A DNA stretch of 51,700 nt from Acidobacteriota bacterium (GTDB lineage: Bacteria; Acidobacteriota; Vicinamibacteria; Vicinamibacterales; CAVVIG01). The stretch is taken from positions 1,830 through 53,529 of the forward strand of contig QHWJ01000244.1 of assembly GCA_003222535.1 (NCBI GenBank), written 5' to 3'. Made by a program: the position numbers and the translations under genes. The notes under the pieces are model-generated. The model searched no databases, was not told where the DNA came from, and was given only the letters and a program-made list of their open reading frames with translations. Shown here one piece after another: positions 27,639-31,849 of this stretch (positions are counted from its first letter, which is position 1; each line of letters starts with the position of its first letter).

Positions 27639-29189
27639 GTGCTGATCCGTACCGATCGCGCCGCACGCGCCTGCTACCGGACCGACGGCGGCCAGATTGT
27701 CTACGGCTTCGCCGACTCGGTCGTTCATGTCCGCGCTCCCGAGGATGTCGCCGAAGTGCTCCGGGCCGCGCAGCGCGACCGCATTCCCGTCACGTGCCGT
27801 GGCGGCGGCCTGACCACCGGGGGTGAGTCGGTCACCGCCCACGGAATCCTCCTCGATCTGAAAGGCCTGAGCCGGCTGCTCGAATGCGACGGCCGGACTG
27901 CGTGGGTCGAGGCGGGCATGACGTGGCACCACGTCGCCGAGGCGCTGCGCCCCCTCGGGCTCGATTACACGAGCGCGCCGCTCAACATGCTGTCGACCGT
28001 GGGCGGGACCCTCGGCGTCGGCGGCATCGACGTCAATTCGCCGCGCCACGGCTGCTCGGCCGACCAGGCCGTGGAATTGGAGGTCGTGACTCCCACGGGC
28101 GACATCGTCCGTGTGAAGGAAGGCGACGACTATCTCGAGCGCGTGCTCCTGGGCTACGGGCAGTTCGGCGTCATCACCAAGGCGCGCATCAAGGTCCGCC
28201 CATACCGGCCGATGACCGTGCGCCACTTTCTCTACACCGATATCGGCGTTGCGCTGTCGGACATGATGCGGCTCGTGGAGCGGGACGCCGTCGACGCCTG
28301 CGCCATCCTCACGCTCTGCGACGATGTGATCGCTCTCATCCTGGGCTTCGAGGACGAGCCACAGGACTTCGCGCTCCGCCACACCCCCGAGCCGCTCTTC
28401 TACGCGAGGCTGGCGGCGAGCTTTGCGAAGCGCCCCTGGCGGTTGGGCGACATCGGGTTCCTGATGCGGCGCAAGGCGGACCTCCTGCCGGCGCTGCACG
28501 ATCCGCTTTTCATGCAAGACGAAGCCGTCCACGATCGCACCGTCGTTTTCAGCCGCCTCATCTGGCGCTACTGGGGTGGACCCGAGATCGTGATCCCGGA
28601 CCTCGCGATCACGAAGGCCGACTTCGAGTCCGCGGCAAGGCGCGGCATCGACGTCTGTAAGAAGTACTTCCCGTACTTCACCCTGTACGCCGTCATGATT
28701 CGCAAGTTCGGCCATCGCCCGCGCTACGAGATGAGCGCGATCCCGGCGACCGGCGACGAGCACGTGTGCGGGATCGAGTTTTCGCCGCTCGTCGAGGGTG
28801 TCCGCTACTCGCGCGACCATTTCCAGTCGTTCAAGAACGCGATCTACGACATCGGCCTCGAGCTCGGCGGCAGCTACTACCGCTTCGGCGGCGTCATGAA
28901 GCCGTACATCCGCCGCATGTTCGGCGACGAGATGGTGAACCGTCATCGCGCCATGAAGCAGGCGCTCGATCCGGCGTTCATCCTCAATCGAGACGTGATC
29001 TTCGATCCGCCTGAGGCTTGCAACGAAGCTTCGCCTGGAACGAAACTTCACGCCGCGACCCCGTCTGTTTCGTTCGCAGGGGGTCAGCTCCGCTGGTGGA
29101 GGCCTCAAACCGCCGAGTGCGACCCTTCTGGAGCCTCACCCGGAAAAGTTGCTTCGTCTCCCCAGAACACGGCCTTAGGCGATGTCTAG
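27639..29189 (+). CDS. FAD-binding dehydrogenase (VAO/PCMH family)
   Basis: A 516-residue protein and the first gene of a three-gene redox operon. Residues about 20-190 form a PCMH-type FAD domain: VHVRAPEDVAEVLRAAQRDR, RGGGLTTGGES, STVGGTLGVGGIDV and GYGQFGVITKARIKVRPY, closest in pattern to cytokinin-dehydrogenase-like and GlcD-like enzymes. The residue where many relatives carry the covalent-FAD His (RGxGHS) is Leu here, so FAD is probably not linked there. The C-terminal substrate domain ends about NRDVIFD. The last 45 residues have repeat-derived composition (including AACCGCCGAGTGCG as DNA). It starts at GTG after GAGAGATGA and is directly followed by the next gene. No signal peptide: cytoplasmic. 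The substrate is unknown. Confidence 0.88.
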   Translation: MLIRTDRAARACYRTDGGQIVYGFADSVVHVRAPEDVAEVLRAAQRDRIPVTCRGGGLTTGGESVTAHGILLDLKGLSRLLECDGRTAWVEAGMTWHHVAEALRPLGLDYTSAPLNMLSTVGGTLGVGGIDVNSPRHGCSADQAVELEVVTPTGDIVRVKEGDDYLERVLLGYGQFGVITKARIKVRPYRPMTVRHFLYTDIGVALSDMMRLVERDAVDACAILTLCDDVIALILGFEDEPQDFALRHTPEPLFYARLAASFAKRPWRLGDIGFLMRRKADLLPALHDPLFMQDEAVHDRTVVFSRLIWRYWGGPEIVIPDLAITKADFESAARRGIDVCKKYFPYFTLYAVMIRKFGHRPRYEMSAIPATGDEHVCGIEFSPLVEGVRYSRDHFQSFKNAIYDIGLELGGSYYRFGGVMKPYIRRMFGDEMVNRHRAMKQALDPAFILNRDVIFDPPEACNEASPGTKLHAATPSVSFAGGQLRWWRPQTAECDPSGASPGKVASSPQNTALGDV

Positions 29190-30200
29190 ATGACCGCGCT
29201 CAACTTCGACGACTGCATCGGCTGTGGCCTGTGCATCCTCGGGTGCCCGGCCTTCGAGGAGACCGGCTTCGACGTGCTGACCGCGCGCGGCCGCAACAAG
29301 GCGCTCCAGGCGGGGCTCGCCGCCGGCGACATGGTCGAACCGATCTGGGCCTGCACACTCTGCGGCTACTGCGACGCGATCTGTCCGACCCGCGTCCACA
29401 ACGTGGAGATCGTCCTGCACCTCCGCCGCGAGCTCGTCGAAGTCGGCCTGATGCTGGACGCTGCCGGAGACACCCCTGAGGTCCGGCTGAAGCCGGATTC
29501 CACAAGAGACGCGGTAGCAGGGTCGGCCTTGGCCTCGTGGGCAGCGTCCGGCTTTAGCGGGACTGCGCCCTCATCGGTAGGGTCCGGCTTCAGCCGGACC
29601 GTCCTGGCGCCGCCGCCGCCTCGACCCGCGCTCGTGCTCGGCTGCACGATCCGCGAGCGCGCACCGCACCTCATTCCCTCGATCAAGGAGTTCCTGAACC
29701 GCATCGGCCGTGCGACGGATCTTTGCGAGGAGGGCTGTTGCGGATCCTTCGAGGTCGAGGCCGGCCGTGCCATGCCGGCACACTCGAGCGCCGGCGTCGT
29801 GTCCGATCCCATCTGCCTCGAGCAGTACGATGCGGAGTTCCTGGGCGTGCTGGCGATGCAGCACCTCGATCTTTTCGAGCTGAAGCCGCCCTTTTACTAT
29901 TTCGCTCCTCACCGGCTCGTGAACCGCGACCACGCCCGCATCTATCCGCTCTACGACGCGCTCCGCCGCCGGTTCGGCTGCGACACGAACCTCGACCTGA
30001 ACCGTCTCGCGCGCTCGACCTCCGCCGGCTCGGTGCAGGGGATGACCGGGCGGGACGCGCGCGACATCGGCGCCGCGGTTGCGCGTCTGCTGACGCACTC
30101 GCGGGCGGAGCGAATCGTCACCTGCTCGCCGGCCGACTATCTGGCGTTCAGGACGTACTCCGGGCGAGAGACGCTGTTCATCACCGAGTGCCTGCGATGA
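29190..30200 (+). CDS. Two-[4Fe-4S] electron-transfer protein with CCG-type C-terminus
   Basis: A 336-residue protein with two ferredoxin-type motifs, CIGCGLCILGCP (residues 9-20) and CTLCGYCDAICP (about 55-66). It then has cysteine motifs resembling those of GlcF/HdrD-type subunits: LVLGCTIRER, LCEEGCCGSFEVEAG and a final IVTCSPADY. It probably passes electrons from the upstream FAD dehydrogenase to a flavoprotein or the quinone pool. The ATG follows the upstream TAG without a gap. Residues about 96-137 (VRLKPDST through SGFSRTVLAPPP) are encoded by palindromic repeats (29481-29600) that keep the frame open. The stop overlaps the next start (ATGA). Confidence 0.9.
   Translation: MTALNFDDCIGCGLCILGCPAFEETGFDVLTARGRNKALQAGLAAGDMVEPIWACTLCGYCDAICPTRVHNVEIVLHLRRELVEVGLMLDAAGDTPEVRLKPDSTRDAVAGSALASWAASGFSGTAPSSVGSGFSRTVLAPPPPRPALVLGCTIRERAPHLIPSIKEFLNRIGRATDLCEEGCCGSFEVEAGRAMPAHSSAGVVSDPICLEQYDAEFLGVLAMQHLDLFELKPPFYYFAPHRLVNRDHARIYPLYDALRRRFGCDTNLDLNRLARSTSAGSVQGMTGRDARDIGAAVARLLTHSRAERIVTCSPADYLAFRTYSGRETLFITECLR
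29481..29600. repeat. In-frame cluster of REP-like palindromes inside the Fe-S gene
   Basis: Three palindromes: 29481-29498 (arms GTCCGGCT and AGCCGGAT), 29546-29563 (GTCCGGCT and AGCGGGAC), and 29577-29600, a perfect GTAG followed by arms GGTCCGGC and GCCGGACC around TTCA. Translation products of the RLKPD type are a known signature of such repeats in acidobacterial proteins. The insert lies between the cluster-binding domain and the C-terminal cysteine domain. Confidence 0.85.
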
Positions 30201-31405
30201 CCGAGATCAGGACGGACGTCCTCATCGTCGGCGCGAGCCTCGCCGGCGCGGCGGCCGCAAAGCGCACGGTCGACGCGGGGCTTCACACGGTGATGATCGA
30301 GCGCAAGGAGCTTCCGCGCCATAAGATCTGCTCCGGCATCCTCTCGCCGCGCGGGTACCGGTTCCTCCAGGAGAATTTCGGCGAGCCGCCTGAGAATGCG
30401 TTCCACACGCCGAAGTGGGTGACCGGCGTGAACTTCCTGTTCCCGAACGGCCTCCAGCTGCGGATGCCGTTCATCCCGGGCCCGACCCCGCACATTTACC
30501 GCAAGTTCGCCGACCACCATGTCGTGAAACAGAGCCGGGCGGAGATCCATGAGCGCACGGAGTTCCGGGGCATCGAGCCGGGCGCGAAGGACGTGCTGGT
30601 GAGGGCGCGCCGCACAGGCGCCGACGCCGGCAGCGAGGAGATCGTCTACCGGGCGAAGTACGTGATCGCCGCCGACGGCCCGCGCTCCGAGGTCGTCGCG
30701 AAGCTGTACCCGACGTTCCGCGACAGCATCTACTGGTTCGTTGTCGGCCAGAAGTACTACAAGGCGGAGCTGAGCCTCGACCCGCGGTGGTTTCACTTCA
30801 CGATCAACTCGCAGCTTGGCTACTACACGTGGAGCCACGAGGAGAACGGCTGCCAGATTGTCGGCTACACCGACGAGCACGGCGAGCCGTGGCCCCGGGG
30901 CCACGCGAAAGCGGTGGCGTACTTCGAGCAGCACCACGGGATGCGGATTCGCGAGGAGGTCTTCAAGGAAGGGTGCCTCGAGAACTTCGGCATGTCCCTG
31001 ACGAACAACTTCGTTTTCGGCAAGGAACGGGTGCTCGTGACCGGACAGGCGGCTGGATTTCTGAACATGATGGCCGAGGGGATGTCGTGCGCGATGCACA
31101 GCGGCGCGATCGCAGGTGAGTCCATCGTGGAATCGTTCACGCGCAACCGCGGCGCAAACCAGGTGTATGACGAGTTGATCCAGAGCGAACGCACGCGCAC
31201 CGTCGACCAGTGGAACCCATTGAAGATTCTCTTCGACAACCCGCACGAAGCTGATCTCAAAGCGGCGATCAGGAAACTGCCACTCTCGGATCGCACCTAC
31301 ATGGTCAGGCAGATGCTGGCCTACATCGGCCAGTTCCGCGGCTACTCATGGCTGAAGCCGATCCTGTCGGCCTCTGCCAGGCGACTCTTCCTCGGGCGGT
31401 ATTAG
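30197..31405 (+). CDS. Geranylgeranyl-reductase-family FAD oxidoreductase
   Basis: A 402-residue flavoprotein. The N-terminal Rossmann motif TDVLIVGASLAGAAAAKRTV binds FAD; IERKELPRHKICSGILSPRG matches the region after it in geranylgeranyl reductases and related halogenase/hydroxylase flavoproteins. The second FAD motif, usually GDAAG, is GQAAGFLNMMAEGMSCAMHSG, with Gln for Asp. YRAKYVIAADGPRSEV is the third nucleotide-binding block. The start overlaps the Fe-S gene stop by four bases, so the three genes are translationally coupled. Family members reduce isoprenoid double bonds or hydroxylate. Here it may reduce or oxidise an aromatic or isoprenoid substrate with the two upstream subunits, or link them to quinone. 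The pathway is unknown. Confidence 0.85.
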   Translation: MTEIRTDVLIVGASLAGAAAAKRTVDAGLHTVMIERKELPRHKICSGILSPRGYRFLQENFGEPPENAFHTPKWVTGVNFLFPNGLQLRMPFIPGPTPHIYRKFADHHVVKQSRAEIHERTEFRGIEPGAKDVLVRARRTGADAGSEEIVYRAKYVIAADGPRSEVVAKLYPTFRDSIYWFVVGQKYYKAELSLDPRWFHFTINSQLGYYTWSHEENGCQIVGYTDEHGEPWPRGHAKAVAYFEQHHGMRIREEVFKEGCLENFGMSLTNNFVFGKERVLVTGQAAGFLNMMAEGMSCAMHSGAIAGESIVESFTRNRGANQVYDELIQSERTRTVDQWNPLKILFDNPHEADLKAAIRKLPLSDRTYMVRQMLAYIGQFRGYSWLKPILSASARRLFLGRY

Positions 31406-31430
31406 CGGACTTCTGGGGCCAGGCACGGTA

Positions 31431-31849
31431 GGGTGCTCGGAGACTGACGCTGCAGGGTGCTTTGAGACTTCGCTATAGGGTGCTCGGGGACTGACGCTGC
31501 AGGCTGCTTTGCGACTTCGCGATAGGGTGCTCGGGGACTGACGCTGCAAGGTGCTTTGAGACTTCGCGATAGGGTGCTCGGGGACTCACGCTGCAAGGGT
31601 GCTTTGAGACTTCGCTATAGGGTGCTTTTCGCGCCGAGCACCATAAAGTGCTTTTCCCGCCGAGCACGATAGAGTGCTTTTCAACCAAAGCACGGTAGAG
31701 GGCTTTTCACGCCGAGCACCGTGGAGTGCTTTTCACGCCAAGCACGTTAGAGCGCTTTCCACGCCGAGCACGATAGAGTGCTTTTCACGCCAAGCACGGT
31801 GGAGTGCTTTTCATGCCAAGCACGATAGAGTGCTTTTCACGCCGAGCCT
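31431..31849. repeat. Composite tandem array: four 47-bp units then nine 26-bp units
   Basis: 47-48-bp units start at 31431, 31478, 31525 and 31572. Each has two half-units beginning GGGTGCT, one continuing CGGGGACTGACGCTGCA and one TTGAGACTTCGCTATA. From 31622 the period is exactly 26 bp, with starts at 31622, 31648, 31674, 31700, 31726, 31752, 31778, 31804 and 31830. Each 26-bp unit is GTGCTTTTCACGCC plus (A/G)AGCAC plus 6 bases, so its ends can pair as a small stem (GTGCTT with AAGCAC or GAGCAC). The array abuts the stop codon of the minus-strand gene at 31848 and lies between convergent genes. Any frames through it are by-products of the repeat. Confidence 0.95.

Follow-up and report, generated by a model that had tools for sequence, protein, structure and literature searches.

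REP palindromes in the inter-domain linker of an Fe-S protein gene of an Acidobacteriota bacterium

REPs tagged with GTAG have been reported within open reading frames of several bacterial species, and RAYT genes are flanked by REPs (BMC Genomics 2013;14:522, PMC3733652). In Thauera and R. conorii, that study describes intragenic REP clusters that code for 43-82 residues. It notes DNA replication and repair genes as REP hosts, and its authors propose that such inserts may be neutral because they occupy flexible linkers or loops, where extra residues are tolerated (PMC3733652). Rickettsia palindromic elements are approximately 150 bp long and fall into ten families (PMC10969869), and RPE-4 and RPE-6 have been equated with CGTC-tagged repeats (PMC3733652). 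Intragenic palindromes of this sort are already described in other bacteria, both in the 2013 study (PMC3733652) and in Rickettsia.

Here we describe a cluster of such palindromes in a 51,700-nucleotide stretch of an Acidobacteriota genome (the window). The intragenic GTAG REPs of the 2013 study share with ours the GTAG tag, the short palindrome, the occurrence in clusters, a REP-flanked RAYT gene and copies within open reading frames, and differ in family sequence (here GTAGTGTCCGGCTTCAGCCGGAC) and in host (PMC3733652). The present case adds homologues from outgroups that are free of REPs, and a second gene in which absent, present, expanded and frame-breaking states are all found. Like Rickettsia palindromic elements, the window family consists of palindromic repeats lying in frame within unrelated protein genes. 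However, its unit is 23 bases and its cluster approximately 120 bases, against approximately 150 bp for the elements as described (PMC10969869), and its tags are GTAG or GTGG rather than the CGTC given for RPE-4 and RPE-6 (PMC3733652). A RAYT gene is also present here, another difference from the Rickettsia elements as described. The arrangement resembles a REPtron (REP plus RAYT) in that one RAYT gene lies between oppositely oriented REP-like sites; unlike in a REPtron, the three flanking sites have diverged, with 1, 5 and 3 mismatches, and GTGG replaces the GTAG of the family in two of them.

Palindromes and domains of the Fe-S protein

The Fe-S protein gene (29190-30200, plus strand) encodes 336 residues comprising two 4Fe-4S motifs, a linker and a C-terminal cysteine domain, and its frame is free of stops through all 336 codons. 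The motif cysteines are C9, C12, C15 and C19, and C55, C58, C61 and C65; residues 7-68 match Pfam Fer4_8 (1.1e-12). A pattern search of the window with GTAGNGTCCGGCTTNAGCCGGAC gave three matches within 29481-29599, on the minus, plus and plus strands, compared with a chance expectation of 0.00 on average over 100 shuffles. REP copy 1 (29481-29503, minus strand) has the tag GTGG and two mismatches, and reads VRLKPDST on the gene strand. Copy 2 (29541-29563, plus strand) is an imperfect palindrome with the tag GCAG and two mismatches, reading AASGFSGT. Copy 3 (29577-29599, plus strand) has the GTAG tag, no mismatches and the reading VGSGFSRT; the perfect 20-base palindrome GGTCCGGCTTCAGCCGGACC lies at 29581-29600, directly after the GTAG at 29577-29580. 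A fourth match, at 29582-29604 on the minus strand with three mismatches, is not a further copy but the opposite strand of this third palindrome. The whole REP-derived coding segment (29480-29600, plus strand) spans approximately 40 codons, corresponding to residues 98-137 or so of the protein. Over 18 bases copy 1 is the full complement of copy 3, and the two pair as one long RNA hairpin; the region 29470-29610 folds at -78.7 kcal/mol, with a z of -4.6 relative to 200 shuffles. Rfam at gathering thresholds gave no match in the window.

We searched a collection of species genomes for homologues with six short peptide patterns and obtained 11 loci. Full-length homologues were found at two of these, L040 (59% identity) and L041 (56%), in MAGs labelled Planctomycetota and Deltaproteobacteria, respectively; the other nine matched the N-terminal part only and were omitted from the alignment. 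In the alignment of the three sequences, L040 and L041 lack the REP segment, their linkers being interrupted by gaps of 52 and 53 residues, and neither of the two genomes contains a REP copy at ≤3 mismatches. All eight 4Fe-4S cysteines and seven of the eight C-terminal cysteines are invariant across the three sequences, with C179 varying, and 127 of 189 residues of the C-terminal domain are the same as in L040. Codon positions 1 and 2 are better conserved than position 3 in both flanking domains, in figures that span the whole divergence and that a very recent gene loss would escape. A structure prediction from the three sequences placed coil at residues 85-147, at a mean pLDDT of 34.7 that is too poor to judge the loop.

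Samples of three phyla, with up to six candidates scored per genome, gave no match at E ≤ 1e-20 beyond those already known (1 of 396, 1 of 392 and 1 of 395 genomes), and the Fe-S gene is rare in these sampled genomes. A further search returned matches in 83 of 100 genomes; among the matches listed, those other than the gene itself were partial and mostly covered the Fer4 region. One match, in G013 (residues 98-149, 53%), was ruled out as a relative of the Fe-S gene, being a different protein that carries a REP array and that resembles, by eye, a cyclophilin-type protein with a signal peptide.

These results bear on a first-pass annotation of the same DNA, which had claimed three palindromes in an open frame, the last a GTAG followed by a perfect 20-base hairpin, between two intact domains. 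The palindromes were located where it had placed them, although the second is imperfect; the frame runs through 336 codons without a stop; and both flanking domains align to two homologues with their cluster cysteines and seven of eight C-terminal cysteines invariant. Its figure of approximately 42 codons at residues 96-137 comes close to the REP-derived part, and the excess of the whole linker is larger, at 52-53 residues. The alignment with homologues that it proposed found the segment absent from both L040 and L041, so that neither of these distant homologues carries the same residues without the palindrome, and the refutation check it had set supports its reading.

The gene upstream in the operon encodes an FAD-linked oxidase (27639-29189, plus strand) that extends 61 residues past its L040 homologue and approximately 54 past that of L041. 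In this C-terminal tail lies a repeat (29022-29118, plus strand) unrelated to the REPs. Elsewhere in the genome it was found at no fewer than 14 sites, in some cases as a partial copy, with 80-97% identity (E ≤ 0.001; 40 of 86 candidates scored). This repeat looks like a MITE, since five of nine aligned copies share their ends, TAACGAAG and CTTCGTTA, and measure 123-131 bp; the window copy is diverged in its 3' part. Thus two genes of the operon took up different repeats, with their frames open. The downstream gene, encoding a geranylgeranyl-reductase-like flavoprotein (30197-31405, plus strand), joins the Fe-S gene by an ATGA overlap and aligns with L040 over 402 positions at 75% identity, with no large insert. 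The order of the three genes is common to the window and L040. In L041 the FAD gene adjoins the Fe-S gene, whereas the downstream gene has no more than a weak match, located at some distance. Past the operon, and before the gene that follows it, two adjacent tandem arrays with units of 47 and 26 bases lie at 31429-31847, and sequence related to these arrays occurs in several other sampled stretches.

The REP family and RAYT gene across genomes

The genome (8.06 Mb in 450 contigs) contains 285 REP copies at ≤3 mismatches (148 and 137), and a reversed-pattern control gave no matches at this threshold; the first-pass annotation had called for such a count. The consensus GTAGTGTCCGGCTTCAGCCGGAC was derived from 168 matches at ≤3 mismatches. 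At the third base of the tag, 90 of the 168 have A and 57 have G, the tag being mostly GTAG or GTGG, and stem variants occur. The family shares with the GTAG REP superfamily a GTAG tag at the end of a short stem-loop and many genomic copies, 285 in this case. It also shares a RAYT gene flanked by REPs, in opposite orientations on either side. This gene (C216:39880-40422) was the one Y1 transposase found in the genome, and scores 101.2 bits with NF047646, the REP-associated tyrosine transposase family, for which the cut-off is 80 bits. The REP-like sites that flank it are at C216:39813-39835 (plus strand, one mismatch), C216:39857-39879 (plus strand, five mismatches) and C216:40438-40460 (minus strand, three mismatches).

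Among 60 genomes, including the one studied here, the REP family is present in 32, at 0 to 622 copies per genome (≤2 mismatches), and the reversed pattern gave one match in G059 and none in the other 59. Transposases of the broad Y1 family were found in 43 of the 60, some of them without these REPs, and no Y1-family transposase was found in G010 and G011, which are among the genomes with at least 50 REP copies. Across the 60 genomes there is no tight link between RAYT genes and these REPs.

REPs within other genes

We examined 1.61 Mb of the genome, made up of the window and 100 further stretches, for REPs at ≤4 mismatches. The 100 stretches comprised contigs 1-20 taken blind, 24 chosen by contig number with no REP listed, and 56 chosen for a listed REP. 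In this sample the reversed pattern gave no match at ≤3 mismatches, one at 4 and 14 at 5. Genes were called with our own fifth-order codon model and greedy choice, not a standard gene finder. The 158 places found formed 110 clusters (77 single, 25 double and 8 larger), of which 62 were intergenic, 30 gene-internal, 12 at a 3' end and 6 at a 5' end. This provides the count of copies in coding regions that the first-pass annotation had also proposed. As in the GTAG REP superfamily, the REPs were mostly intergenic and occurred as singles, dimers and clusters, in a sample that is mostly REP-chosen. Internal clusters made up 28 of 99 in the REP-chosen stretches, 1 of 7 in those picked by number and none of 3 in contigs 1-20, the window adding one; the genome-wide share of gene-internal REPs is uncertain, because the internal clusters come almost wholly from REP-chosen stretches. 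Called genes cover 82% of the sample and 62 of the 110 clusters are intergenic; REPs therefore lie in genes less often than this coverage would predict, a pattern expected where most insertions of this kind do not persist.

The 30 internal clusters are spread over 23 genes, with copies that share a gene not counting as independent events, and 29 of them include a copy at ≤3 mismatches. For 25 of the 30 the frame of the host gene scored best of six on both sides of the cluster. The 40 internal copies are read in three main frames, giving VRLKPDTT (18), VVSGFSRT (10) and SVRLQPD (10), with one copy in each of two other frames; two frames of the consensus contain a stop. Host genes are long, with a median of 702 against 345 residues. 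All 23 host proteins were scanned for families, and one, in L174, had none. Six of the 23 are two UvrD-type helicases, an Lhr-type and a YoaA-type helicase, an Eco57I-type methylase and a ResIII or type III restriction-type protein. The remaining hosts include transporters, peptidases and oxidoreductases. Three separate internal clusters occur in one UvrD-type helicase gene (L109 15405-18917, plus strand; G000 contig C48). A few genes of the genome begin with apparent signal peptides containing REP peptides; in G013, a REP array follows just past the apparent signal peptide of L199 1854-3641, whose protein resembles, by eye, a two-domain cyclophilin.

One host gene, of the menaquinone-biosynthesis type (L123:16344-17333, minus strand; Pfam VitK2_biosynth), has two REPs in one loop and was matched in 35 of 40 genomes including its own. 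Of 29 relative loci retrieved, 26 entered the alignment, leaving out the fragmentary-looking G005, G008 and G002. VRLKPDTT or a close form lies at the same loop in the genome itself, G023 (several units), G012 and G013, and G014 has a degenerate REP peptide there. G016 (L215) has a long insert in the same loop that is not REP-derived, a sign that this loop may tolerate other sequence too. The other 21 relatives have a short loop. Inspection of the loop DNA in 8 of the 27 sequences found REPs at ≤2 mismatches in the genome itself, G023, G012 and G013, a relic with five mismatches in G014, and no REP at ≤6 mismatches in G016, G024 and G017. In G012 the reading ends at the TAG of the GTAG tag in a REP array and the remainder lies in another frame, a break that may be real or an assembly error. 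The relatives with REP peptides in this gene, at L214, L218 and L220, belong to several genera, the G023 form being expanded and that of G012 frame-breaking. Judged from these sequences, one old insertion followed by change and repeated insertion at a preferred site would both fit.

Origin and fate of the insert

The reading we favour, and regard as very probable, is that a REP cluster was inserted in a tolerant inter-domain linker and was retained since the frame survived, probably near neutral. The three GTAG-type REPs would be non-autonomous, and a putative RAYT transposase like the genome's own most likely mobilised or copied them. The cluster would have landed in a small Fe-S electron-transfer protein, after its N-terminal domain with the two clusters and before its C-terminal cysteine domain, in an insertion that apparently took place in this lineage. 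The direction of this change would be set by the two outgroups, at 56-59% identity, because only two full-length homologues were found, rather than by an empty site in a near relative. The protein is presumably made with the extra linker, and the insert would have survived because the frame was kept and the site tolerates extra length.

A use for the insert, kept by selection, is an unlikely account. Either the mRNA hairpin would slow ribosomes in the inter-domain region, or electron transfer would be altered by the added linker length. The stable fold (-78.7 kcal/mol, z -4.6) and the REP peptides at one loop of the menaquinone-pathway gene in several genera are in its favour, but the hairpin is a consequence of the palindromes themselves, the scatter of copies across unrelated genes points to tolerance, and no orthologue set was found for measuring selection on the insert. 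A nearly neutral insert is more probable than one that selection has kept for a new function. It is also quite improbable that the insert broke the protein and that the open frame is the leftover of a gene already dead. REP insertion can break genes, as in the menaquinone-pathway gene of G012, and the upstream FAD gene has a foreign tail as well. Against this stand an uninterrupted frame of 336 codons, the retention of all eight cluster cysteines and of seven of eight C-terminal ones, the 127 of 189 residues of the C-terminal domain shared with L040, third codon positions that are the least conserved, and a downstream gene that is open at 75% identity.

An error of assembly or sequencing at a repeat in a draft genome has very little to recommend it. 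The assembly does have 450 contigs, and the insert was judged from assembled sequence alone, but the units are approximately 23 bases and the cluster approximately 120 on a contig of 65 kb, the frame is open across the insert, and similar inserts occur in other genes and in relatives. That these residues have long belonged to the protein, with codons palindromic by chance, is hardly credible: they are absent from both homologues, and the DNA fits a genome-wide family for which the control gave no matches, both of which argue strongly against it. The preferred reading, insertion of a mobile repeat into a tolerant linker, agrees with the first-pass annotation in that an inter-domain linker arose from a mobile repeat, as the REP-free outgroups, the 285-copy family and the RAYT gene support; in the sense of a useful linker, its wording would go further than these results. 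That annotation is supported as right on what is present and broadly right on its meaning.

A wider proposal, which we offer tentatively and consider rather doubtful, is that in this bacterial family the REPs are a recurrent source of new linker and loop peptides, almost entirely in three of six frames. In at least one enzyme, that of the menaquinone-pathway gene, the insert may have been retained across several genera or gained anew at the same loop, one copy having grown into an array; the REPs might then be an evolving, partly domesticated generator of linkers. The Fe-S protein gene provides an outgroup-checked case of mobile DNA turned protein sequence, with both flanking domains conserved. 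With the REP family present in 32 of 60 genomes, the fates of in-frame inserts (lost, kept, expanded or frame-breaking) are traceable across a bacterial family.
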